Of a DNA stretch of 64,000 nucleotides, positions 3,639-51,471 are shown one piece after another. The stretch spans positions 3,720,001 to 3,784,000 of the forward strand of contig NZ_CP019285.1 of NCBI RefSeq assembly GCF_000226975.2. The letters run 5' to 3'. The position numbers were made by a program, and so were the translations under genes. A model generated the notes under the pieces. That model was not told the origin of the DNA and searched no databases. It saw only the letters and a program-made list of their open reading frames with translations. Source of the stretch: Halobiforma lacisalsi AJ5 (GTDB taxonomy: Archaea > Halobacteriota > Halobacteria > Halobacteriales > Natrialbaceae). Within the stretch, counting starts at the first letter, position 1, and every line of letters starts with the position of its first letter.

Positions 3639-4244
3639 CTAGTCGTCGGCGCCCACCTCGGCAGGCGTATTCACCGTGAGGTTGACGTCCTGGTCGAGGG
3701 AGACGAGATTGTAGACCGGCGCCCGCCGGGCCCACTCGTCGACCTCGTCCTTGTCGAGGTCGGGGCTCTCGATCTCGATCTCCGCGGTCAAGTTTTCGAA
3801 CACGGTGTCGGCGTTCCCGAGATCCTCCACGCTGAAGAGGACGCTCGGGTCGAACTCGGTACGAACGCGCGTCTCAAGGTGGTCGATGTCGACGCCGTTC
3901 GCGACGGCATTGATGGTGATGCCGACGTTGATGCACGAGGCGAGTGCGGAGAGCGCGACCTCGATCGGTTCCATCCGATCCGTCGCTTCGACCCAGCCGC
4001 CGGCCTCGAGCACTTCCTTCCACCCGCCGTACGGGATCGTGTACGCGCGGGTACCCCGGTCGATCGTCTCGTTGCCGAGGACGTACGAGTCTATCGTCGC
4101 CAGACTGTGGGCGCACGTCCCTTCGTAGATCGATCGGGCGCTCAGTCCGAGCTGGACGTCCTCGGGGTTTTCGGCGGCGTGTTCCGCGAACGCGTCGAGT
4201 TCCTCGGTATCGACGCCATGGGAGAGGTGTCGTTCGGTTCCCAT
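3639..4244 (-). CDS. OsmC-family thiol peroxidase or thiol-binding protein
   Basis: This encodes a 201-residue OsmC/Ohr-fold protein. The family reduces organic hydroperoxides with a Cys pair regenerated by a dithiol such as lipoamide. Here the central-helix Cys104 sits in ALSALASCINVG, the family position, and a second Cys at 44 lies in an N-terminal extension (EGTCAHSLAT). The distal Cys of classical OsmC is not obvious, so this is closer to the YhfA-like branch. It lies 3 bases after the DUF1059 gene and 11 bases before the methyltransferase, as the second gene of the operon. A redox-linked role for the operon is inference. Confidence 0.82.
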   Translation of the reverse strand: MGTERHLSHGVDTEELDAFAEHAAENPEDVQLGLSARSIYEGTCAHSLATIDSYVLGNETIDRGTRAYTIPYGGWKEVLEAGGWVEATDRMEPIEVALSALASCINVGITINAVANGVDIDHLETRVRTEFDPSVLFSVEDLGNADTVFENLTAEIEIESPDLDKDEVDEWARRAPVYNLVSLDQDVNLTVNTPAEVGADD

Positions 4245-17183: not shown

Positions 17184-19724
17184 ATGGAGTATCACGAGGC
17201 GGCGGACTTTTGCTTCGGTCTGCGGCGGTTCCGTCCGAAGCCGGGGACGGAGTCGACCGCACGGTTGCTCGCCCACCTCGAGGATCCCCACGAGGACGTC
17301 GATTTCGTGCAGATCGCCGGCTCGAACGGCAAAGGGAGCACGGCCCGGATGCTCGAGCGGACGCTCCGGGAGGCCGGGCTAACCGTCGGGCTCTACACCT
17401 CGCCGCACCTCGAGGACCTGCGCGAGCGGATCCGCGTCGACGGGCGCAAGATCCCCCGCTCGGCGGTCACCGACTACGTCGAGGCGGTCCGGGAGTACGT
17501 AACCGAGCGGGCAGCGGACGGCGACTCCCCGACGTTCTTCGAGGTGATGACCGGAATGGCGCTGTGGCACTTCGGCCGCGAAGAGGTCGACGTGGCCGTC
17601 CTCGAGGTCGGCATCGGCGGCCGCTACGACGCGACCAGCGTCGTCGATCCGGTCGCCAGCGCGGTGACCAGCGTCACCTTAGAGCACACGGGCATCATCG
17701 GCGAGACCGAGGTCGAGATCGCCGAGGACAAGGCTCACGTGGCCCCGGACGACGCGCCGCTGGTCACCGGCGTCTCGGGCGACCCGCTCGAGGCGATCCG
17801 GGAGGTCGCCGGCGAAGTGGTGACGGTCGGTCGTGAAAGCGGGACCGATCCCGACGTCAGGGTCACCTACGACGGTCGCCGGAACCACACCGAAGCCGCC
17901 GTCTCGATCGCCGGCGACGGCTGGGACATAGAGACCAGGATCCCGCTCCCGGGCGCCCACCAGGCCGCGAACGCGGGCATCGCCGCGACGCTCGCCCGGC
18001 AGGTCGCCGACGTCTCGACCGACGAGATCGCCCGCGGCCTCCGGAGCGCCCACTGGCCCGGCCGGTTCGAGGTGATGGACACCGAGCCGCTTGTCGTCCT
18101 CGACGGCGCGCACAACCCCGGCGCCTGCGAGACCCTCGCCGAGACGCTCGGCACCTACGAGTACGACGACCTCCACTTCGTCGTCGGCGCGATGCACGAC
18201 AAGGACCACCGGGAGATGGCCGCCGCGCTCCCGACGCCGACGACCGTCGTCGCCGCCGAACCGCCCCTCGACCGCGCCGAGGACCGGGAGGTGCTCGCCC
18301 GCGTGTTCGACGATGCCGGTGCCGGAGACGTCCGAACCGAGGCGTCGATCCCGGACGCGCTCGCCGCGGCCCTCGAGACCGCCGACGCCGACGACTGCGT
18401 GCTCGTGGCCGGATCGCTGTTCGCGGTCGCGGAGGCCCGCTCGCGCTGGACCGTCGACGGCGTCCCCAAACGGATCCAGGATCTCGAGGACGCCCGCGAG
18501 ACCCTCGAGGAGGCGAACGTCCCGGCCGAGGACGCCGACCGAACCGGCGAGAACGCCGTCCACCGCGTCGTCAAGACGAACCTGAGCTATCGGGGGGCCA
18601 CCCGCCTGAAGGAGGAACTGCTCCGGCTCGGGGGGGACTGTGCCCTCTCCGGACACGGCCACAGCCCCGGCAACGACGACGAGCGCGTCGACGCCGTCCT
18701 GATGGGCACCCTCGCACAGTTCGAGGAGCTGCTCGAGTCGATCGACGACGAGTCGGGGCCATCCGGGCTCGCGGACGTCGCACGGGAACTCCGATCGACG
18801 CTCGAAATCGAGAGTCAGGACGTGGACGACGCTACCGTCACCGCGCCGGGAACGGACGACACCACGAAGCGGACCGACGACGCTGGAGTCACGGCGGCCG
18901 ACCGCTGGCCCTGGGCGGACCGCACCGCCGTCATGGGGATCCTCAACGTCACGCCGGACAGCTTCCACGACGGCGGCGAGTACGACGCCCTCGAGGATGC
19001 GCTCGCCCGCGCCGAGGCGATGGTCGAGGCCGGCGTCGACGTGATCGACGTCGGCGGGGAGTCGACCCGTCCCGGTGCCGACCCCGTCCCGATCGAGGAG
19101 GAGATCGACCGCGTCGTCCCCGTGATCGAGGGGATCCGCGACCGCGGTCTCGATGCCCACGTGTCGGTCGACACGCGCAAGGCGGCCGTCGCCGACGCCG
19201 CCCTCGAGGCCGGCGCGGACATCGTCAACGACGTCTCCGGCCTCGAGGACCCCGAGATGCGGTTCGTCGCGGCCGAGCACGACGCCGGTCTGGTCGTGAT
19301 GCACAGCATCGACGCGCCGGTCGTCCCGGACCGTGACGTCGAGTACGACGACGTCGTCGAGGACGTCATCGACCAGCTCTCGGAACGGATCCTGCTCGCC
19401 GAGAAGGCCGGCCTCGACCGCGAGAACGTCGTCGTCGATCCGGGGCTCGGCTTCGGCAAATCCCCTCGGGAGAGCTTCGAACTGCTCGGTCGCACTGACG
19501 AGTTGCGCGCGCTGGGCTGTCCGATCCTCGTCGGCCACTCTCACAAGTCGATGTTCGGTCACGTCGACCGCGAAGCGGGCGATCGACTCGAGGCGACAGT
19601 GGCGGCGACGGCCCTCGCGGCCGACCGGGGTGCCGACGTCGTCCGGGTCCACGACGTCCCCGAGAACGTCGCGGCGGTACGGACGGCCCTCGCGGCGCGG
19701 GATCCGGACCGCTTCGAGTGGTAG
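17184..19724 (+). CDS. folCP: FolC-FolP fusion: dihydrofolate/folylpolyglutamate synthase and dihydropteroate synthase
   Basis: The 846-residue bifunctional folate enzyme has an N-terminal Mur-ligase-like FolC domain (about 1-430) with the P-loop GSNGKGST (about 49-56) and EVGIGGRYDATS. A linker domain (about 470-520, LKEELLRLGGDCALSG and VLMGTLAQFEELL) resembles the extension found on some dihydropteroate synthases. The C-terminal FolP barrel (about 575-846) has GILNVTPDSFHDGG, GGESTRPGA and VDPGLGFGKS. The pterin-site motif reads GHSHKSMF, with His where bacterial enzymes have Arg. Together they join pterin to p-aminobenzoate and add glutamate. This fusion is known in haloarchaea; the start at 17184 fits. 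Confidence 0.92.
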   Translation: MEYHEAADFCFGLRRFRPKPGTESTARLLAHLEDPHEDVDFVQIAGSNGKGSTARMLERTLREAGLTVGLYTSPHLEDLRERIRVDGRKIPRSAVTDYVEAVREYVTERAADGDSPTFFEVMTGMALWHFGREEVDVAVLEVGIGGRYDATSVVDPVASAVTSVTLEHTGIIGETEVEIAEDKAHVAPDDAPLVTGVSGDPLEAIREVAGEVVTVGRESGTDPDVRVTYDGRRNHTEAAVSIAGDGWDIETRIPLPGAHQAANAGIAATLARQVADVSTDEIARGLRSAHWPGRFEVMDTEPLVVLDGAHNPGACETLAETLGTYEYDDLHFVVGAMHDKDHREMAAALPTPTTVVAAEPPLDRAEDREVLARVFDDAGAGDVRTEASIPDALAAALETADADDCVLVAGSLFAVAEARSRWTVDGVPKRIQDLEDARETLEEANVPAEDADRTGENAVHRVVKTNLSYRGATRLKEELLRLGGDCALSGHGHSPGNDDERVDAVLMGTLAQFEELLESIDDESGPSGLADVARELRSTLEIESQDVDDATVTAPGTDDTTKRTDDAGVTAADRWPWADRTAVMGILNVTPDSFHDGGEYDALEDALARAEAMVEAGVDVIDVGGESTRPGADPVPIEEEIDRVVPVIEGIRDRGLDAHVSVDTRKAAVADAALEAGADIVNDVSGLEDPEMRFVAAEHDAGLVVMHSIDAPVVPDRDVEYDDVVEDVIDQLSERILLAEKAGLDRENVVVDPGLGFGKSPRESFELLGRTDELRALGCPILVGHSHKSMFGHVDREAGDRLEATVAATALAADRGADVVRVHDVPENVAAVRTALAARDPDRFEW

Positions 19725-23956: not shown

Positions 23957-24215
23957 AGGTAAATCAGTGGCCGGTGGGCCAACCGTACCTGTGATTTCCC
24001 CTACTGAACCTAAAGCCTTTGCTATACATTACCAAGAATTTTTCGTGAAGAATGGGCAGTCGTTCAGAATTACGAATGAAAGATTATTACTGTACCGCTA
24101 ACTGCCGACCTCGATTTCCGTTCATCGACGGACGGATCCGTGAGTTGGACGCCATCGGCCAACCACATTGTGGGTCGACGATATCTTTTACCGTCCGTTC
24201 GTGGTACCTTCACGC
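23957..24215. promoter_or_regulatory. divergent promoter region of porAB and the E2-OsmC gene
   Basis: In these 259 bases, A/T-rich sequence at 24000-24095 contains the porA promoter. TCTTTTACCG at 24184-24193 lies about 25 bases before the E2 ATG at 24216, fitting a leaderless transcript. No palindrome stood out. Confidence 0.45.
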
Positions 24216-26084
24216 ATGGGGTACATCGTCCGGATGCCGAAACTCGGCCTCGAGATGGAACGCGGGACCTTGCTCGAGTGGCACGTCGAATCGGGGGAGT
24301 CGATCGAAGAGGGGGACCTCGTCGCCGAGGTGGAGTCCGAAAAGAGCGTCGGCGAAGTCGACGCCAGGGAAGACGGCGTCCTCCGGCGCACCTATCTCGA
24401 GGCGGGGGCAGAGGTTCCGCCGGGGACGCCGATCGGGATCGTCGCACCGGAAGACGAGTCGATCGACGACCTCGAGGCCGAAGCCGAGGCGGATCTCGAC
24501 CTCGAGGAGGGCAGCGAGGCCGACGCGGAGGAGACGGCCGAACCGGGCAGCGTCGAAGCCGGGCGGGCAAGCACTGCTGCGGCGGACGAGAGCACCGCCG
24601 GCGGCGATGACGGGGACGTGCGTGCGTCCCCGCGCGCTCGAGAGCGTGCAAAGGAGCTGGGGGTTGCCCTGGAGACCGTCGAGGGGACGGGCTACCAGGG
24701 TGCGATCACGGAAGACGACGTCGAGGCGGCCGCGGAGGCAGCCGACGTCGGCCAGCCAAACGCCTCCCCGCGCGCCCGAAAGCGAGCGGAGGAACTGGGC
24801 GTCGACCTCGCGTCCGTCGAGGGAACGGGTTACCAGAGTGCGATCACGGAAGACGACGTCGAGGCCGCGGCCGAAGCCGCGGAGACGGCGGCCGGCGGCA
24901 GGACCCTCGCCGAAGAACGCGCCTTCGACGGGATGCGTCGCACGATCGCCTCGCGGCTGAGCGAGAGTTACCGCGAGGCCGTCCACGTGACCGTCCATCG
25001 CGAGGCCGACGCCGAAGCGCTGTTCGCCGCGGTCGACGCCGCCGACGACGCCCTCGAGACCGACGTCTCCCTCCAGGACCTCCTCCTGCTGGCGGTGTCG
25101 GCGACGCTCGAGGACCACTCCGCGTTCAACGCGACTTTCGAGGACGACGCTCACCGGATCTGGGCGGAGCACAACCTCGGGGTCGCCGTCGACGTCGAAC
25201 AGGGGTTGATCGCGCCGGTCCTGCGCGACGTCGGCTCGAAGTCCCTGTCGGAGGTCGCCGAGGAACGCCGCGACCTCGTGGACGACGCCCTGAGCGGCGA
25301 CTACACGATGGACGACCTGCGCGGCGGGACGTTCACGGTGACGAACCTGGGCGTCCTCGGCGTCGAGTCGTTCGATCCGATCATCAACCCGCCGCAGGTG
25401 GCGATCCTCGGCGTCGATGCGATCGAGGAGGAGCCGGTCCGTACCGAAGCCGGCGACGTCGAGTGGCGACGTCACCTCCCGCTCGACCTCTCGTTCGACC
25501 ACCGGGTCGTCGACGGCGCGGACGCCGCCCGGTTCCTCGAGACGCTGGTCGGCCACCTCGAGGAGCCGACGTCGCTGCTGCCGGCGGAGGTCGACCTCGA
25601 GGCCGGGGGAGCGACCGCCGCCGGAATCGCCGACGGAGCCGGTTCCAGCAGCGGGACGACTGGCTCGAGCGATGGGACGGAGATGCCCGGCCGCACCGTC
25701 ACCGCGACGAACCCCGACGGCATGCGCGGCCGGATCGAAGCGGGCTCGTTCGAGTGGGGGTACGACGAACCCGCGGACAGGGGCGGCACCGAAACCGATC
25801 CGACGCCGGTCGACGTCTTCCTCGGGGGGCTGGCCTCCTGTCTCTCCCTGAGCACGCGCTACCAGGCCGACAAGCGCGACGCCGACGTCGGGGAGATCTC
25901 TGTGACGACCGACGCCGACCCCGAACACGGGAGCGTCGAGTCGATCGAGGCGACGATCCACCTCGAGTCCGACGAGGACGACGAGACCGTAGAGCGGATC
26001 GTCGAACTCGGCGAGCGGGGCTGTCACGTCTCGCAACTGCTCCGGGAAGACCTCGAGTTGGACCTCTCGTGGGACCGCCACTGA
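24216..26084 (+). CDS. dihydrolipoamide acyltransferase (E2) fused to an OsmC peroxidase domain
   Basis: This 622-residue protein has an N-terminal lipoyl domain with the lipoyl lysine K43 (ESEKS). Two tandem E3/E1-binding domains follow (about 136-175 and 181-222, each SPRAR..A.ELGV...VEGTGYQ.AITEDDVEAA). The E2 catalytic domain (about 230-455) carries SFDHRVVDGA. A Gly/Ser linker (about 462-489) leads to a complete OsmC domain (490-622) with both conserved cysteines, C542 (LASCLSLS) and C603 (GCHVSQLL). E2 transfers acyl groups from lipoamide to CoA; OsmC/Ohr enzymes reduce peroxides using dihydrolipoamide. The gene converges on the E1 alpha/E1 beta/AcoX-like genes. The ATG at 24216 matches the lipoyl-domain start. 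The fusion suggests intramolecular peroxide reduction by the lipoyl arm. Confidence 0.9.
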   Translation: MGYIVRMPKLGLEMERGTLLEWHVESGESIEEGDLVAEVESEKSVGEVDAREDGVLRRTYLEAGAEVPPGTPIGIVAPEDESIDDLEAEAEADLDLEEGSEADAEETAEPGSVEAGRASTAAADESTAGGDDGDVRASPRARERAKELGVALETVEGTGYQGAITEDDVEAAAEAADVGQPNASPRARKRAEELGVDLASVEGTGYQSAITEDDVEAAAEAAETAAGGRTLAEERAFDGMRRTIASRLSESYREAVHVTVHREADAEALFAAVDAADDALETDVSLQDLLLLAVSATLEDHSAFNATFEDDAHRIWAEHNLGVAVDVEQGLIAPVLRDVGSKSLSEVAEERRDLVDDALSGDYTMDDLRGGTFTVTNLGVLGVESFDPIINPPQVAILGVDAIEEEPVRTEAGDVEWRRHLPLDLSFDHRVVDGADAARFLETLVGHLEEPTSLLPAEVDLEAGGATAAGIADGAGSSSGTTGSSDGTEMPGRTVTATNPDGMRGRIEAGSFEWGYDEPADRGGTETDPTPVDVFLGGLASCLSLSTRYQADKRDADVGEISVTTDADPEHGSVESIEATIHLESDEDDETVERIVELGERGCHVSQLLREDLELDLSWDRH

Positions 26085-26099: not shown

Positions 26100-26333
26100 T
26101 CACTGCCGGGGCGCTGGTACCTCCGTTTCGACGGTGATAGAACGGACGATTCCCCAGAGCAAGAGCCGCACCGCCCGCTTGTGATCCCGCTTCGCCCGGT
26201 GGACGTGCATCGGGCGCGTTCGCTGGTGGTCGTAGGCCGCGAACGCTTCCGGGTGGACGTCGCCACGATCCGCCATCGCTCCTCGAATCTCGCGCAACAG
26301 GGCATGCAGGTTGATCAGTTCGTCGCGACGCAT
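26100..26333 (-). CDS. UPF0058 family protein
   Basis: The 77-residue protein starts MRRDELINLHALLREIRGAM and continues with PEAFAAYDHQRTRPMHVHRA, then KRDHKRAVRLLLWGI. The HLHxLL and HRxKxxHKRAV patterns match UPF0058, a small helical family widespread in haloarchaea that may bind metal through its His residues. It lies between the 3' end of the E2 gene and the AcoX-like gene, convergent with E2. The start at 26333 is the first Met giving the family length. Function unknown. Confidence 0.85.
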   Translation of the reverse strand: MRRDELINLHALLREIRGAMADRGDVHPEAFAAYDHQRTRPMHVHRAKRDHKRAVRLLLWGIVRSITVETEVPAPRQ

Positions 26334-26401: not shown

Positions 26402-27466
26402 CTATTCGGGCCCCGACGACGCCGTCGAACCGACGTCGAACCCGCCGTTTCGGGCGCCGATCTCGAGGGCCCGCGACGCGTCGACCAGACGCGGGCCGTC
26501 CTCGATCGGCCGCAGCTCGGCCGTCGCGTCGGTGGCCTCGAGTTCGCGCTCGCCGTCCGCGCCGACGACGCCGTCCGCGAGGTCGAACGTCACGGACTCG
26601 CCGGGTTCGAGCCATCGCCAGGACTCGATCCCGACCGTCGCGAGGACGCCGGGCGCGACGACCGCGCGAACGGTCCGGTCGGCCGTGGACGGCTCCTCGA
26701 GGCGAACCGCGACGCCGCCGGGATCCTCCCCGGCGACGGGTGAGTCCACGAGCGCGCCGGCGACTGCCGGGAGGCCGACGTCTCCCGGATGCGCCCGGGA
26801 GACGACGCCGCCCCGCAGGTCGGCCGGATCGAGCAGCGCGCGGGTTCCGACGAACGACCGCGACGAGAGTTCGGCGGACGCGAGCGCGGTCAGCCGGCGG
26901 CCGTCGCCTGATGCGGTGCCGGATCGCAATTCGGCTTCGACCCGCCCGTGGCGCGTCGTCACCGCGTCGGCCGGCACGGCCCCGGAAGCGACGAGCGCGG
27001 CCGCAGCACCCGCGAGCGTGCCGTCGATCGGGGTGGGAACGACGTTGTTCGTCCCCGTCGACACGGCGACGACGGGCACCGGACCGATCTCACCGGCGAC
27101 GTCGCGGGTCGTCCCGTCGCCGCCGAGGACGACCGCCGCGTCAACAGTCTCGCGGAAACGCGCCGCCGCGGTCCGGGTATCGGCCGCCGTCCCCTCGAGG
27201 TCCATCTCGAGGAGATCCGTCGCCAGCGACTCGTCGGCGGTCTCTATGGCGTCGACGGCGATGCCGGTCCGATCGGGCATCGCGACCACCTCGACCGGCG
27301 GGTCGGCGAGGGTCAGCCCCTCGAGGACGCACTCGGCGACCCGACGTTTCGCGTAGTTGTCGACGACGCTCGCGCCGCCGGTGAGCCGGCGGACGTCCCG
27401 GCCCGCGGCGGGGTTGACGAGCAGGCCGACCCGGGCGCTGGACCGGGACCGATCGGCGTCGACCAC
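26402..27466 (-). CDS. acoX: AcoX-like ATP-NAD kinase family protein
   Basis: The 354-residue protein has the NAD-kinase/diacylglycerol-kinase fold: GLLVNPAAGRDVRRL at the N-terminus, the nucleotide motif VVLGGDGTTRDVA (about 110-122) and VVAVSTGTNNVVPTPIDG (about 131-148). The GTNNV form, not GTxGFL, is the mark of AcoX proteins encoded in acetoin-dehydrogenase operons. It begins with GTG at 27466, one base from the E1 beta stop, so it is the third gene of the E1 alpha-E1 beta operon. AcoX proteins are not needed for the dehydrogenase reaction; their exact phosphorylation target is unknown. Confidence 0.85.
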   Translation of the reverse strand: MVDADRSRSSARVGLLVNPAAGRDVRRLTGGASVVDNYAKRRVAECVLEGLTLADPPVEVVAMPDRTGIAVDAIETADESLATDLLEMDLEGTAADTRTAAARFRETVDAAVVLGGDGTTRDVAGEIGPVPVVAVSTGTNNVVPTPIDGTLAGAAAALVASGAVPADAVTTRHGRVEAELRSGTASGDGRRLTALASAELSSRSFVGTRALLDPADLRGGVVSRAHPGDVGLPAVAGALVDSPVAGEDPGGVAVRLEEPSTADRTVRAVVAPGVLATVGIESWRWLEPGESVTFDLADGVVGADGERELEATDATAELRPIEDGPRLVDASRALEIGARNGGFDVGSTASSGPE

Positions 27467-27467
27467 G

Positions 27468-28475
27468 CTACGAGATCCGTTCGATCGCCGCCCGTACGTC
27501 GTCGCCGTCGGGCAACACCTCGGTCTCGAGCGGCGGGCTGAACGGCATGTGCGTGTCGGGCGTACCGACTCGCTGGATCGGCGCGTCGAGGCTGAAGAAC
27601 GCCTCCTCCTGGACGCGGGCGACGATCTCGGCGTGGGTCCCGTACGAGAGCGGGCTCTCGTCGGCGACGATCAGCCGACCGGTCTTGCGAACGCTCTCGA
27701 CGATCGTCTCCGTGTCGAGCGGGTACAGCGAGCGGGTGTCGATCACCTCGACGTCGACGTCGTCGGCGATGCTCTCGGCGGTCTCGAGCGACTCGCCGAC
27801 GAGCCGCTGGGTCGCGACGACGGTGACGTCCTCGCCCTCGCGTTCGACTGCAGCCTCGCCGATGGGGGCGGTGAAGTCCTCGTCGGTCGGAACCTGGCCG
27901 GTCTGCTCGTAGATCATCTTGTTCTCGAAGACGAAGACCGGATCGTTCGACCGGATCGCGGCCTTCGTCAGCCCCTTCGCCGCCGCGGCGGTCCCGGGAG
28001 CGACGGCTTTCAGCCCGGGGAAGTGAGCGATCCAGGAGTGGACCGTCCCCGAGTGCTGGCTGGCGGCACCCATGCCGCCGCCCTCGGTCGTTCGGACGGT
28101 GATCGGCATCTCCGCCTTTCCGCCGAACATGTACCGCATCTTCGCCATCTGGTTCATGATCTGTTCCATCGCGACGCCGCTGAAATCCGAGAACATCAGT
28201 TCGACGACGGGCCGGGTTCCAGTCGCCGCCGCACCCGTCGCTGCCCCGGTGAAGCCGGCCTCGCTGATCGGGGTGTCCTTGATTCGCTCGTCGCCGAACT
28301 CCTCGTAGAGGTCGCCGGTCACCTCGAGGACGCCGCCGAACTTCCCGATGTCCTCCCCGATGAGGAAGACGTCCTCGTCGCGGTCGAGTTCCTCGCGCAG
28401 GGCCTGGCGAATCGCTTCCCTGACGGTCAGTTCCTCGGTTTCGGTCTCGAGTTCGCGTTCGACCTGTGCGGTCAT
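27468..28475 (-). CDS. 2-oxoacid (acetoin-type) dehydrogenase E1 beta subunit
   Basis: The 335-residue E1 beta starts MTAQVERELETETEELTVRE. Family motifs include DEDVFLIGEDIGKFGGV, DTPISEAGFTGAATGAA and the C-terminal DTRSLYPLDTETI. With E1 alpha it uses thiamine diphosphate to decarboxylate a 2-oxoacid, or to cleave acetoin, and loads the acyl group on the E2 lipoyl arm. Its start overlaps the E1 alpha stop by four bases (ATGA). The AcoX-like partner favours an acetoin-type substrate, while branched-chain 2-oxoacids remain possible; haloarchaea carry several such complexes with uncertain substrates. Confidence 0.9.
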   Translation of the reverse strand: MTAQVERELETETEELTVREAIRQALREELDRDEDVFLIGEDIGKFGGVLEVTGDLYEEFGDERIKDTPISEAGFTGAATGAAATGTRPVVELMFSDFSGVAMEQIMNQMAKMRYMFGGKAEMPITVRTTEGGGMGAASQHSGTVHSWIAHFPGLKAVAPGTAAAAKGLTKAAIRSNDPVFVFENKMIYEQTGQVPTDEDFTAPIGEAAVEREGEDVTVVATQRLVGESLETAESIADDVDVEVIDTRSLYPLDTETIVESVRKTGRLIVADESPLSYGTHAEIVARVQEEAFFSLDAPIQRVGTPDTHMPFSPPLETEVLPDGDDVRAAIERIS

Positions 28476-29518
28476 GGTCGGTCACCCCCTGGACGGCCGC
28501 CATCGGTCCGAGCGGCGCTGGCGAACTGTTCGATCTCCGGCGGCATCTCGGCGAACATGTCGTCGTACGCCTCGCGCGGTTCCGGCGGGTCGGCGTCCTG
28601 GGCGTACTCGATCGCGGCTTCGATCTCGGCTTCGGCCTCGGCCTGCATCTCCTCGAACTCGGATTCGGTCAGTTCGCCGCGGTCGATCAGTCGCTCCGTG
28701 AACGATTCGATCGGGTCGCGGTCCTTCCAGCGCTCGATCTCCTCCTCGTCGCGGTACGGCTCCTCGTCGCCCTCGTAGTGGCCGCGGTACCGGTAGGTCT
28801 CGGCCTCCACGAGCGTCGGGCCCTCGCCGGCGCGGGCCCGCGAGCGTGCCTCGGAAACGGCTTCGGAGACTGCGATGACGTCCATCCCGTCGACGGTCAG
28901 CCCGGGAATGTCGTAGGCCTGGGCCGTGTCGCTCAGGTTGTCGACGTTGTGTTGCTCCTCGACCGGCGTCCCCTCGCCGTACTGGTTGTTCTCGACGACG
29001 AAGACGGCCGGCAGATCCCACGTCGATGCGAGATTGATCGCCTCGTGGACCTGCCCCTGGGCGACGGCCCCGTCGCCGAGGAACCCGACCGCGACCTGAT
29101 CGCGGTCCTGATAGTCGATCGACAGCGCCGCGCCCGTCGCGAGCGGCGGCCCCGCGCCGACGATGCCGTTCGCCCCGAGCATGCCGGCGTCGACGTCCGC
29201 GATGTGCATCGATCCTCCTTTGCCGTTGCAGTAGCCCTCCGACTTGCCGTACAGTTCGGCCATCATGTACTTCGGATCGAGCCCCTTCGCGATACAGTGG
29301 CCGTGCCCGCGGTGGGTGCTCGCGATGTAGTCGTCCGGCTCGAGGGCCCCGCAGGTGCCGACGCCGACCGCCTCTTCCCCGATGTAAAGGTGGACGAACC
29401 CCGGTATTTCTCCGTCCGCGAATCTATCCCCCGCCTCCTCGTCGAACGCACGGATGAGTACCATCCGGCGCAACGCCTCGACTCGTCCCTCCGCACTCTC
29501 GAGGTCGTAGTCTGCCAT
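28472..29518 (-). CDS. 2-oxoacid (acetoin-type) dehydrogenase E1 alpha subunit
   Basis: The 348-residue E1 alpha has the TPP motif GDGAVAQGQVHEAINLAS followed by VFVVENN (about 149-178), and THRGHGHCIAKG (about 68-79) for active-site contacts. The acidic C-terminal third is typical of a salt-in protein. It is the first gene of the E1 alpha-E1 beta-AcoX operon. A TATA-like ATATAT (29549-29553) lies about 30 bases upstream, with an inverted repeat (TACCA-N5-TGGTA) behind it. E2 is on the opposite strand at 24216-26084. A candidate E3 is the disulfide reductase at 48627-50162. Confidence 0.92.
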   Translation of the reverse strand: MADYDLESAEGRVEALRRMVLIRAFDEEAGDRFADGEIPGFVHLYIGEEAVGVGTCGALEPDDYIASTHRGHGHCIAKGLDPKYMMAELYGKSEGYCNGKGGSMHIADVDAGMLGANGIVGAGPPLATGAALSIDYQDRDQVAVGFLGDGAVAQGQVHEAINLASTWDLPAVFVVENNQYGEGTPVEEQHNVDNLSDTAQAYDIPGLTVDGMDVIAVSEAVSEARSRARAGEGPTLVEAETYRYRGHYEGDEEPYRDEEEIERWKDRDPIESFTERLIDRGELTESEFEEMQAEAEAEIEAAIEYAQDADPPEPREAYDDMFAEMPPEIEQFASAARTDGGRPGGDRP

Positions 29519-48626: not shown

Positions 48627-50162
48627 TCACTCGTGGTCGTGGCTGTGCTCGTCCTCGTGGTCGTGATTGTGGTTATGATGGGTATGCTCGTGCCCGTGCC
48701 CGTGTCCGCGCTCGTGCTCGTGCTCGTGCTCGTGAGCACCCGGACCCCGACGCGTAAACTGGCCCGCGAACCCTCGATCGACCACCTCCGACAGCGCGGG
48801 ATGGATATGGACCGACTCCCGGATGTCCCACACCGTCCCCGTACCGGCCGTCATCGCCACGACGACCTCCTCGATGAGGTTCGACGCCTCGGGACCGAGG
48901 ATGTGACAGCCCAGGATCTCGCCCTCCGGCTCGATGATCGCCTTGACGAACCCCTCGGCGTTCATCGCCTGGCCGCGGGCGGTGTCCTCGTACCGATACG
49001 TCCGCGTCGCGTACTCCCGGTCCGCCTCCCGGAGCTCCCCCTCTCGAGCGCCGACGCCGGCCACCTCGGGCGAGCCGAACACGGCGAAAGGCATCGCCGA
49101 GTAGTCGACCGGCTCGAGTCCCTCGCTGAACAGGTTCCGGGCGACGGCGCGGGCCTCGTGGTTTGCGTTGTGTTTCAGCAGGTACTCGCCGACGATGTCG
49201 CCCAGCGCCCAGACGCCGTCGGCGCTCGTCCGCAGGTACTCGTCGGTCTCGACGAACCCGCGCTCGTCGGTGTCGACGCCCGTGGCCTCGAGGTCGAGCA
49301 GGTCCGAGTTGGGCCGACGGCCGGCCGCGATCAGGAGGGTGTCGCCGGTCACCGTCACCGGGTCGTGTGCGTCGGGGTCGTCCCACACCGGCGGATAGGG
49401 GCGCGCGTCGACGGCGACCTCGCCGCCGGACTCGCTCGCGGCGACGGCTTCGTATCCGGTGTGGACCTCGAACCGGTCGGCGTACCGCTCGGTGAACGCG
49501 GCGCCGACCTCCTCGTCCGCCGCTGGGAGCAGGTGCGGCCGCCGGCCGACGATCGACACCTCGCTACCGAAGGTACCGAAGAAGTGCGCGAGTTCCGCCG
49601 CGATGTAGCCGCCGCCGACGATCATCAGCCGATCGGGCGGCGACTCGAGTTCCAGCGCCTCGCGACTCGTGAGATAGTCGACGTCCTCGATCCCCTCGAT
49701 CGGCGGGATCGCCGGACGGGTACCGGCCGCGACGAGAACCGTCTCCGCGCTGAGACGTCGGCCCGCGTCGGGCCCGTCGACGACCTCGAGGGTTCGATCG
49801 TCGACGAAGCTGCCCTCGCCGCGCAGCAAGTCGTGTCGGTCGGAGGACCGCAAGCCCCGCTCGATCGACTCGGCACTGTCGGCGACGTCGTCGTTGACCT
49901 CGCGGACGATCTCCGCGAACTCGACGTCGGAGACCTCGGCGTGGATGCCGAACTCCTCGGCTCGCTCGACGGTCTCGAGCACTTCCGCGTGATACAACAG
50001 TTGCTTCGACGGGATGCAGCCGCGGTTGAGACAGGTCCCCCCGAGCGGCCCCTTCTCGACGACGGCGACCGACTGGCCGCGGTTCGCCGCCGCGTTCGCG
50101 ACGTCGAGGCCGGAGCCGGAGCCGACGACCAGGAAGTCGACTTCCGTGTCGTGCGTTTCCAT
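48627..50162 (-). CDS. flavin disulfide reductase (dihydrolipoyl dehydrogenase/mercuric reductase-like) with His-rich tail
   Basis: The 511-residue class I pyridine nucleotide-disulfide oxidoreductase has FAD motif VVGSGSGLDVANAAA, redox pair Cys44/Cys49 (GGTCLNRGCIPSK), NAD motif MIVGGGYIAAELAHFFGTFG and the C-terminal His-Glu pair in HIHPALSEVVD. These make it competent as a dihydrolipoyl dehydrogenase, mercuric reductase or related enzyme. Its last 35 residues hold 16 His alternating with Glu, Gly, Asn or Asp, a strong metal-binding tail encoded by a CGTGCT-rich repeat. It could serve as E3 for the E1/E2 complex at 24-29.5 kb or handle a metal. The start is at 50162. Confidence 0.87.
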   Translation of the reverse strand: METHDTEVDFLVVGSGSGLDVANAAANRGQSVAVVEKGPLGGTCLNRGCIPSKQLLYHAEVLETVERAEEFGIHAEVSDVEFAEIVREVNDDVADSAESIERGLRSSDRHDLLRGEGSFVDDRTLEVVDGPDAGRRLSAETVLVAAGTRPAIPPIEGIEDVDYLTSREALELESPPDRLMIVGGGYIAAELAHFFGTFGSEVSIVGRRPHLLPAADEEVGAAFTERYADRFEVHTGYEAVAASESGGEVAVDARPYPPVWDDPDAHDPVTVTGDTLLIAAGRRPNSDLLDLEATGVDTDERGFVETDEYLRTSADGVWALGDIVGEYLLKHNANHEARAVARNLFSEGLEPVDYSAMPFAVFGSPEVAGVGAREGELREADREYATRTYRYEDTARGQAMNAEGFVKAIIEPEGEILGCHILGPEASNLIEEVVVAMTAGTGTVWDIRESVHIHPALSEVVDRGFAGQFTRRGPGAHEHEHEHERGHGHGHEHTHHNHNHDHEDEHSHDHE

Positions 50163-50226
50163 ATCTCTATCACAGCCGCCGACGGTCGTTAAACCGAGGG
50201 CTGAAAGCGCCGCCGAACGGTTACGA

Positions 50227-51471
50227 TTACGAAAAAGACGCGAATGCGCCGGGGAGCCGGGCGTACGCCTCGGCCGTCGCGGCGAGGGCGTCGACGGTCG
50301 TGTACTCGTCGCAGGCGTGGGCCGTGTCGGTTGCGACGGCGAACTCGACGGTCGGAATCCCGGCGTTTCGCAGTTGCTTGGCGTCGCCACCGCCGGTCGC
50401 ACTGCGTCGGAAGACGTCCTCCTCGAGGACGTCCGTCGCGACGCTCCGGGTCGCCGCGACGACCGGCGCGTCGGGGTCCTCGTAGGTGCCGACGCTCCAG
50501 CCGACGTCCGCGATCGAGACGCCCTCGTGGTCCACGAGCCACTCGCGAACGTCGGCGAGGACGGCCGGGGTCTCGACGCCGGGTGCCAGCCGGACGTCGA
50601 GTTGGGCCGTCGCTTCCCGCGGCACGCTGTTTACCGCCTCGCCGCCCTCGAGCGTCCCCAGGTTGACCGTCGGTCGCTCGAACAGCCGGCGTGCGGTCCT
50701 CTCGCCCATCGCCGGGGCGTAGTAGTCGACCGACTCCTCGAGGACGGGTTCGACGGCCCCGGGGACGGATAGCCGGCGGGACTCGAGTCGACCGCGGACG
50801 TCCTCGAGGGCCGCCCAGAGGCGATCGATCGCGTTCTCGCCCAGCATCGGACGTGAGCCGTGGGCGGCCTCCCCGGTAGCCTCGAGGGTGAGCCAGATGC
50901 TCCCGCGGTCTGCGACCGTGATCGACGCTCGCTCCGCGTCGCAGGTCGGTTCGCCGATGACGCAGGCGTCGGCCGCGAGCCGATCGCGCTCGAGGAGGGC
51001 CCTGACACCCGCCTCGCCCGCGATTTCCTCGTCGCTGACGAACACGAACGAAAGCGTCACGGGCGGCGTCGTTCCGGTCTCGACGTACGCGCGGGCGACT
51101 TCGACCATCGCGGCGACCGCGCCCTTCATGTCGGTGGTGCCGCGACCGTAGATTCGATCGCCGACGCGCTCCCCGAGCGGGTCGTACGACCAGCCGTCGG
51201 GATCGTAGGGGACCGTATCGAGGTGCCCGAGGAAAAGCAGCGTTCGCTCGCCGTCGCCCGGCAGGGTCGCGAGCAGGTTCGGCTTTTCAGGGTCGGTCGC
51301 CACCCGGTCGGTCTCGAGGCCGAGGTCGTCGAACCACGACTCGAGGAGGGCGACGCTCTCGCGGGTGTTTCCGGGTGGATTCGTGGTCTCGAGGCCGACG
51401 AGCTCGAGCGTGCGGTCGGCGACCGCGTCGCGTCGGTCCTGAAGGGAAGAGATGGTCGAAGGGGACCTCAT
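50227..51471 (-). CDS. M20-family metallopeptidase (ArgE/DapE/carboxypeptidase-like)
   Basis: The 414-residue protein starts MRSPSTISSLQDRRDAVADR. Zn-binding motifs: FLGHLDTVPYDP (first His-Asp), YGRGTTDMKGAVAAM (bridging Asp), VSDEEIAGEAG (catalytic Glu pair) and a C-terminal CDEYTT. Acyl-amino acid deacylases and dipeptidases share this layout; the dimerisation domain begins near ITVADRGSIWLTLEATGEAA. Substrate unknown, although ArgE/DapE enzymes are closest. Its ATG overlaps the stop of the upstream HTH regulator (ATGA), so the regulator and enzyme are in one operon. Confidence 0.88.
   Translation of the reverse strand: MRSPSTISSLQDRRDAVADRTLELVGLETTNPPGNTRESVALLESWFDDLGLETDRVATDPEKPNLLATLPGDGERTLLFLGHLDTVPYDPDGWSYDPLGERVGDRIYGRGTTDMKGAVAAMVEVARAYVETGTTPPVTLSFVFVSDEEIAGEAGVRALLERDRLAADACVIGEPTCDAERASITVADRGSIWLTLEATGEAAHGSRPMLGENAIDRLWAALEDVRGRLESRRLSVPGAVEPVLEESVDYYAPAMGERTARRLFERPTVNLGTLEGGEAVNSVPREATAQLDVRLAPGVETPAVLADVREWLVDHEGVSIADVGWSVGTYEDPDAPVVAATRSVATDVLEEDVFRRSATGGGDAKQLRNAGIPTVEFAVATDTAHACDEYTTVDALAATAEAYARLPGAFASFS

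Follow-up and report, generated by a model that had tools for sequence, protein, structure and literature searches.

Characterised proteins of the Ohr and OsmC subfamilies are reduced by lipoyl systems (PMC8945050), and Ohr has been crystallised with bound dihydrolipoamide (6ebg, 6ebd). The lipoylated E2 component of 2-oxoacid dehydrogenase complexes (dihydrolipoyl acyltransferase) and this dihydrolipoyl-fed fold have so far been known to meet as separate proteins. Here we describe a gene of the haloarchaeon Halobiforma lacisalsi AJ5 in which the two are joined: a single reading frame encodes an E2 followed by a C-terminal OsmC-like domain. It lies in a stretch of 64,000 nucleotides (NCBI RefSeq assembly GCF_000226975.2, contig NZ_CP019285.1, positions 3,720,001 to 3,784,000 of the forward strand), which is called the window below. 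The initial annotation of the locus had noted the use of dihydrolipoyl electrons by OsmC and Ohr, correctly in the light of the above work, and had known of no system with this architecture. In agreement with the latter, no description of an E2-OsmC fusion was found in the main texts of the open-access PubMed Central (PMC) literature, and a survey of archaeal gene fusions mentions a lipoamide dehydrogenase fusion and no OsmC (PMC11237513). The parts and the link between lipoyl groups and Ohr are known, and what appears to be new is the covalent union and its repeated dissolution.

Among the closest described counterparts is, for the E2 part and its neighbours, the bacterial acetoin dehydrogenase system (acoX-acoA-acoB-acoC), which also combines AcoX and the E1alpha and E1beta subunits in one operon with a lipoylated E2; in Caballeronia, the genes that follow an AcoX homologue encode E1alpha, E1beta and an E2 annotated as that of acetoin dehydrogenase. 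The haloarchaeal protein differs from bacterial AcoC in that it combines a 2-oxoacid_dh catalytic core with OsmC, and the full-length AcoC model NF011457 matched residues 5-179 only, with 73 of 307 bits. An AcoA/AcoB-like E1 pair is known from haloarchaea, namely oadhAB3 of Haloferax volcanii (HVO_0669/0668; 54% and 47% identity to AcoA and AcoB of B. subtilis), whose substrate is unidentified; the paper on these oadh complexes does not mention OsmC (PMC8305020). OsmC domains fused to other enzymes have also been described. In the EstRM family of carboxyl esterases OsmC is likewise a C-terminal domain of unknown function, but its partner is a serine esterase without lipoate (PMC5113044). In OsmC-YcaO proteins (TIGR03549) OsmC is again fused to another enzyme domain, but the partner is unrelated, and only a weak match to this model was obtained here.

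One reading frame for an E2 and an OsmC-like domain

The frame is open from a TTG codon at 24168 to the stop codon at 26082-26084, without internal stops, and the ATG at 24216 agrees with the conserved N-terminus of the homologues (MGYIVRMPKLG). The Pfam matches, all of which exceed the curated cut-offs, include the E3_binding family (PF02817) in two stretches (5.2e-25); two such domains are present in many homologues, not in all. The sequence features of a dihydrolipoyl acyltransferase were found, namely a lipoyl-lysine domain, an E3-binding domain and a core with the DHRxxDG motif. Frame reading and Pfam confirmed the layout given by the initial annotation: lipoyl K43, two E3-binding domains, the E2 core, and OsmC at residues 490-622 with C542 and C603. 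In the AlphaFold2 model of the full-length protein the domains stand apart, joined by flexible linkers, and residues 467-486, directly ahead of OsmC, are disordered. Judged by its motifs, the fusion is an E2 with intact lipoylation and acyltransferase sites, for which acyl transfer is predicted.

To describe the distribution of the fusion, we used the genomes of 391 Halobacteria, a sample of one class. In a search with the OsmC tail, frames that end in OsmC and are 493-700 amino acids long were found in about 50 genomes. The domain content was checked in 37 loci by BLAST against the domains of the window, and also in some 20 loci from named genomes, the organisms overlapping in part. Halobiforma haloterrestris, Natronococcus, Natronorubrum, Halorubrum, Halogranum and Halobellus all have E2 and OsmC in one frame, H. 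haloterrestris being the nearest named relative (96% over the OsmC part). A frameshift or a misannotation of two separate genes, which the initial annotation had considered, is ruled out by the recurrence of the same one-frame architecture in the 37 sampled loci and the named genomes. Outside Halobacteria no relatives were found with two strict peptide patterns, a search that excludes close relatives only. One locus of the sample has a shorter variant, L059:8191-9669 (-), a frame of 493 amino acids that contains the E2 core and OsmC and no lipoyl domain.

K43, H429, C542 and C603 are invariant across 34 aligned fusions, and position 433 of the E2 core is D in 31 and N in three of them. Among 45 OsmC domains with identity down to 30%, the only invariant residues are P531, C542, P569 and C603. 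The fusion is usually convergent with an acoX-E1beta-E1alpha operon. AcoX was present in 42 of the 50 fusion genomes versus 39 of the 341 others (Fisher p ~8e-26, a value overstated by the treatment of related genomes as independent).

Repeated dissociation of the fusion

Eleven short proteins consist of a lipoyl-like fold and OsmC, without E3-binding domains or the E2 core. In all 11 of these remnants the lipoyl lysine is lost, and in all 11 both OsmC cysteines are kept. The OsmC tree places at least seven separate changes between the fused and the remnant form on well-supported branches inside the fused set (the trees were built from 137 and 224 columns, that of E2 being a quick one). Five remnants stand at a chromosomal position that, in a relative, is taken up by the fusion together with the acoX-E1 operon. 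Two of them, L076 and L077 from the genus of the window, are found between the ferredoxin oxidoreductase and HAD/PHP genes, which is the slot of the window's fusion and acoX-E1 operon. The slots of L078 and L082 are those of the fused loci L039 and L043, respectively, and L073 stands exactly at the place of the fusion and acoX-E1 operon in L060 of the same genus, a place and a family other than those of the window. Slots in common were also noted between the remnants L079 and L077, L112 and L078, and L081 and L085. Both domains of L076 and of L078 have their nearest counterparts in the fusions of close relatives, in keeping with an excision at the original site.

For L072 and L074, both of which form long branches, no such common slot was found. 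The genome of L072 (G317) is an exception, containing both a fusion (L052) and the remnant-like protein; since the fusion is present as well, L072 may be a separate paralogue. For most of the remnants, the alternative that lipoyl-OsmC proteins are a single ancient paralogue was rejected, given their seven or more separate positions within the clade of fusions, the five slots common with fusions and the affinity of both domains of L076 and L078 to fused copies. The polarity from fusion to remnant is based on the way in which the remnants are scattered over the fused clade and on the loss of the lysine; that a complete E2 core was restored at the same site seems far less probable than its loss.

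Nine remnant genomes were examined for the remaining components. None of them had acoX, and none had an E1alpha above ~42% identity to that of the window. All nine keep another E2 together with lipoate ligases, and therefore a dihydrolipoyl donor in trans stays available. Low-molecular thiols of haloarchaea are another possible donor for the remnants.

In one further lineage, that of Haloterrigena-like genomes, OsmC is encoded separately, next to E1alpha, and the E2-like protein has lost DHRxxDG. The opposite separation was also revealed: E2s with an intact core and without OsmC occur in the same type of operon and form two groups in the E2 tree; OsmC is therefore dispensable for the complex. 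Over evolutionary time, the two parts have come apart in either direction. The acyl-transfer set (E1, acoX, the E2 core and the lipoyl lysine) vanishes together, and the OsmC cysteines do not, which argues that OsmC is selected for a task that needs no lipoyl group on its own chain. The retention of OsmC in at least seven lineages where the other parts of the complex are gone suggests that the redox domain has a separable job of its own. The repeated reductions thus represent a natural experiment that sets the needs of acyl transfer (lipoyl lysine, E2 core, E1 and acoX) against those of OsmC (two cysteines), and they make the function of a YhfA-like OsmC directly testable in haloarchaea.

As a separate observation, E2-like proteins with a degenerate core are encoded in acoX-E1 operons of the loci L126-L130, L135-L137, L143-L145, L080, L083, L084 and L086. 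They keep the lipoyl and E3-binding domains, contain YDTRAI, YDARAIGG and similar sequences in place of DHRxxDG, have no canonical acyltransferase site and form one clade in the E2 tree.

Active site and possible function of the OsmC-like domain

Modelled alone, the OsmC part reached a predicted local distance difference test (pLDDT) score of 95.8 in AlphaFold2. Foldseek against the PDB placed members of the OsmC/Ohr family on top, the best being Ta0195 of Thermoplasma (2onf) with a template modelling (TM) score of 0.83. The second match was 1ml8, which we take to be YhfA of E. coli, and many Ohr proteins followed, including the dihydrolipoamide-bound ones.

The catalytic residues of Ohr were located by a profile match to Vibrio Ohr (3eer). 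At the position of the catalytic Arg (Arg19 of XfOhr), Arg is present in three of 45 homologues; this alignment could slip by 1-2 residues, and no neighbouring column has R in more than 14 of 45. The position of the catalytic Glu (Glu51 of XfOhr) is V, I or P in all 45, with D or E one position further on in all 45. In XfOhr, replacement of either residue (R19A or E51A) left only residual dihydrolipoamide-dependent activity and raised the pKa of the cysteine (PMC5962072). The curated Ohr and OsmC models gave 19.8 of 88.85 bits (TIGR03561) and 12.5 of 85.8 bits (TIGR03562), and the best curated model was that of the OsmC-related (seleno)proteins (NF041052; 63.9 bits, under its cut-off of 95). 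The E. coli equivalog model PRK10738 did not match the OsmC domain of the window.

Thus, the domain shares with the Ohr/OsmC peroxidases the fold, two cysteines in two family motifs and a plausible dihydrolipoyl reductant, but differs from them in being fused to E2, in lacking the catalytic Arg and Glu and in scoring far under the cut-offs. Membership in the Ohr or OsmC subfamily is ruled out by the curated models together with the catalytic columns. With YhfA-type and NF041052 proteins it has in common two cysteines without the Arg/Glu pair; these, however, stand alone, and the match is under the cut-off or missing. The YhfA subfamily shows the same residue pattern, and its activity is not known (PMC8945050). 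As the Arg and Glu are absent here as in the YhfA type, the presence of both cysteines does not by itself indicate a peroxidase. Of the full OsmC peroxidase domain proposed in the initial annotation, the complete fold and both cysteines therefore stand, and the peroxidase label, in the sense of an Ohr-type enzyme, is not supported by the active-site columns. It should be added that the window contains a second OsmC-like gene (3639-4244, minus strand), in which the first cysteine is present (ALASC) and APVYN is found where the second is expected.

We propose, with a probability of about 0.5, that the gene encodes the E2 of an acetoin-dehydrogenase-like (acoA-acoB-acoX) complex that carries a separable, C-terminal, OsmC-like two-cysteine redox module served by dihydrolipoyl groups. 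In this scheme K43 would be lipoylated and acyl transfer would take place at H429, as the motifs indicate. C542 would attack a small oxidant or electrophile, an organic hydroperoxide, a peracid or a similar compound being the first guess, and would then close a disulfide with C603; such a two-cysteine cycle is suggested by the fold and by the invariance of both residues. By analogy with Ohr and OsmC, the disulfide could be reopened by dihydrolipoyl groups of E2 complexes, which a shared E3 would recharge. In the fusion, the handiest donor would be the chain's own arm or that of a neighbour; the remnants would have to draw on a different lipoylated protein or on some other thiol. Acyl transfer and redox function depend on each other so little that either one has been retained alone.

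Several points weigh against this proposal. The activity is a prediction here, retention of two cysteines fits any thiol chemistry, the dihydrolipoyl donor is assigned by analogy with Ohr/OsmC only, and the assignment to acetoin is based on operon order and homology. Furthermore, the Arg and Glu of Ohr are missing from the domain, and the esterase-OsmC fusions keep both cysteines yet had no peroxidase activity in an assay with dithiothreitol (PMC5113044); the substrate may therefore not be a peroxide.

The initial annotation had proposed a self-contained, lipoyl-dependent peroxidase, in which the tethered arm reduces the OsmC cysteines directly. Spelled out, the arm would swing from the E2 site to the C542-C603 disulfide, and the organic peroxides or peracids removed in this way would arise at the E1 or E3 of the complex or come from outside. 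The lipoyl lysine and both OsmC cysteines do lie on one chain in all 34 aligned fusions, Ohr-dihydrolipoamide crystal structures exist, and in two loci an E3 gene is convergent to the E2-OsmC-E1alpha-E1beta genes. Nevertheless, we regard this model as rather unlikely. Most fusion loci have no E3 gene nearby, the Arg/Glu pair is absent, and loss of either residue leaves XfOhr with residual activity (PMC5962072). The remnants weaken the model further: at least seven lineages retained OsmC after losing the arm in cis, and therefore the arm was not the selected purpose of OsmC there, and an essential role of the arm is not supported; in the fused form it may still act. An obligatory or main use of the tethered arm for the reduction of peroxides is doubtful. 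A broader form, in which the E2's own swinging arm serves a built-in thiol-redox enzyme, an OsmC variant without the Arg/Glu pair, and directs E2-bound dihydrolipoyl electrons to oxidant removal, is likewise put forward only tentatively and is probably incorrect.

Less probable still is a YhfA-like OsmC with non-peroxide thiol chemistry (for example on persulfides, on adducts of acyl groups or thiols, or on disulfides of proteins) that travels with the lipoyl gene for co-expression only. It would explain the YhfA-type residue pattern, whose biochemistry is unknown (PMC8945050), and the cases in which OsmC persists in the cluster as a gene of its own; but the nearest curated model is that of the OsmC-related (seleno)protein family, and selenocysteine in an OsmC-like family (motif UxxT, COG1765; PMC9312934) points to redox chemistry of some kind. 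The idea, raised as the alternative in the initial annotation, that OsmC is a redox sensor, slowing acyl transfer under oxidative stress through oxidation of its cysteines or by draining dihydrolipoyl electrons, we consider very unlikely: tethering by a flexible linker would suit it, and removal of OsmC raised the activity of bacterial esterase-OsmC fusions (PMC5113044), but OsmC outlived the enzyme to be regulated, and E2, E1 and acoX are found without OsmC. The proposal of a separable redox module is the one that we carry forward.

Genomic surroundings

The features of the fusion gene and of the convergent operon are collected in Table 1. Upstream of the fusion, a divergent pair of genes encodes a 2-oxoacid:ferredoxin oxidoreductase. 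The AcoX-like gene adjoins E1 in most fusion loci. Operon order and homology make the complex acetoin-dehydrogenase-like, with acetoin as the inferred substrate.

Table 1. Features of the E2-OsmC fusion gene and the adjacent genes (positions in the window).
Feature	Position	Strand	Evidence
E2-OsmC fusion gene	24216..26084	+	single frame, 622 amino acids; conserved in ~50 of 391 Halobacteria
Lipoyl domain, residues 1-76	24216..24443	+	Pfam PF00364 Biotin_lipoyl over 5-74, 3.4e-13
Lipoyl lysine K43, in VESEKS	24342-24344	+	invariant, 34/34 aligned fusions
First E3/E1-subunit-binding domain, residues 135-170	24618..24725	+	Pfam PF02817; AlphaFold2 helices 139-148, 166-177
Second E3/E1-subunit-binding domain, ~residues 181-216	24756..24863	+	second stretch of PF02817; AlphaFold2 helices 185-194, 212-225
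E2 acyltransferase catalytic core, residues 234-455	24915..25580	+	Pfam PF00198 2-oxoacid_dh, 7.5e-67
H429 of motif DHRVVDG	25500-25502	+	invariant, 34/34 fusions
Low-complexity linker between E2 core and OsmC, residues 456-489	25581..25682	+	pLDDT <50 at 467-486
OsmC-like domain, residues 490-622	25683..26081	+	Pfam PF02566, 2e-15 over 524-617; AlphaFold2; PDB fold matches
OsmC cysteines C542 / C603	25839-25841 / 26022-26024	+	both codons TGT; both Cys in 45/45 homologues
UPF0058 small gene, between fusion and acoX operon	26103..26333	-	Pfam PF01893, 4.3e-14
AcoX-like protein, ATP-NAD kinase superfamily; third gene of convergent operon	26402..27466	-	Pfam PF01513
E1 beta subunit	27468..28475	-	Pfam PF02779 and PF02780; NCBIfam NF006667 over cut-off
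E1 alpha subunit	28472..29518	-	Pfam PF00676, 2e-93

A second, ordinary E1-E2-E3 operon is located elsewhere in the same genome (G000:C1:1264012-1269189), and an E3 can therefore be shared. The E3 genes convergent to E2-OsmC, E1alpha and E1beta operons are located at L067:10533-11960 (-) and L068:4723-6189 (+). Within the window, a flavoprotein frame at 48630-50630 (minus strand) has 38% identity to the lipoamide dehydrogenase of the genome. In L065:5542-7668 (-), E1alpha and E1beta are themselves fused in a single frame of 709 amino acids adjoining the E2-OsmC fusion.

Scans for Sigma-70-type promoters and for terminators gave nothing above chance; haloarchaea use other promoters. At 17184-19724 (plus strand), the window also contains a single frame in which Mur-ligase domains are combined with a pterin-binding (dihydropteroate synthase) domain.
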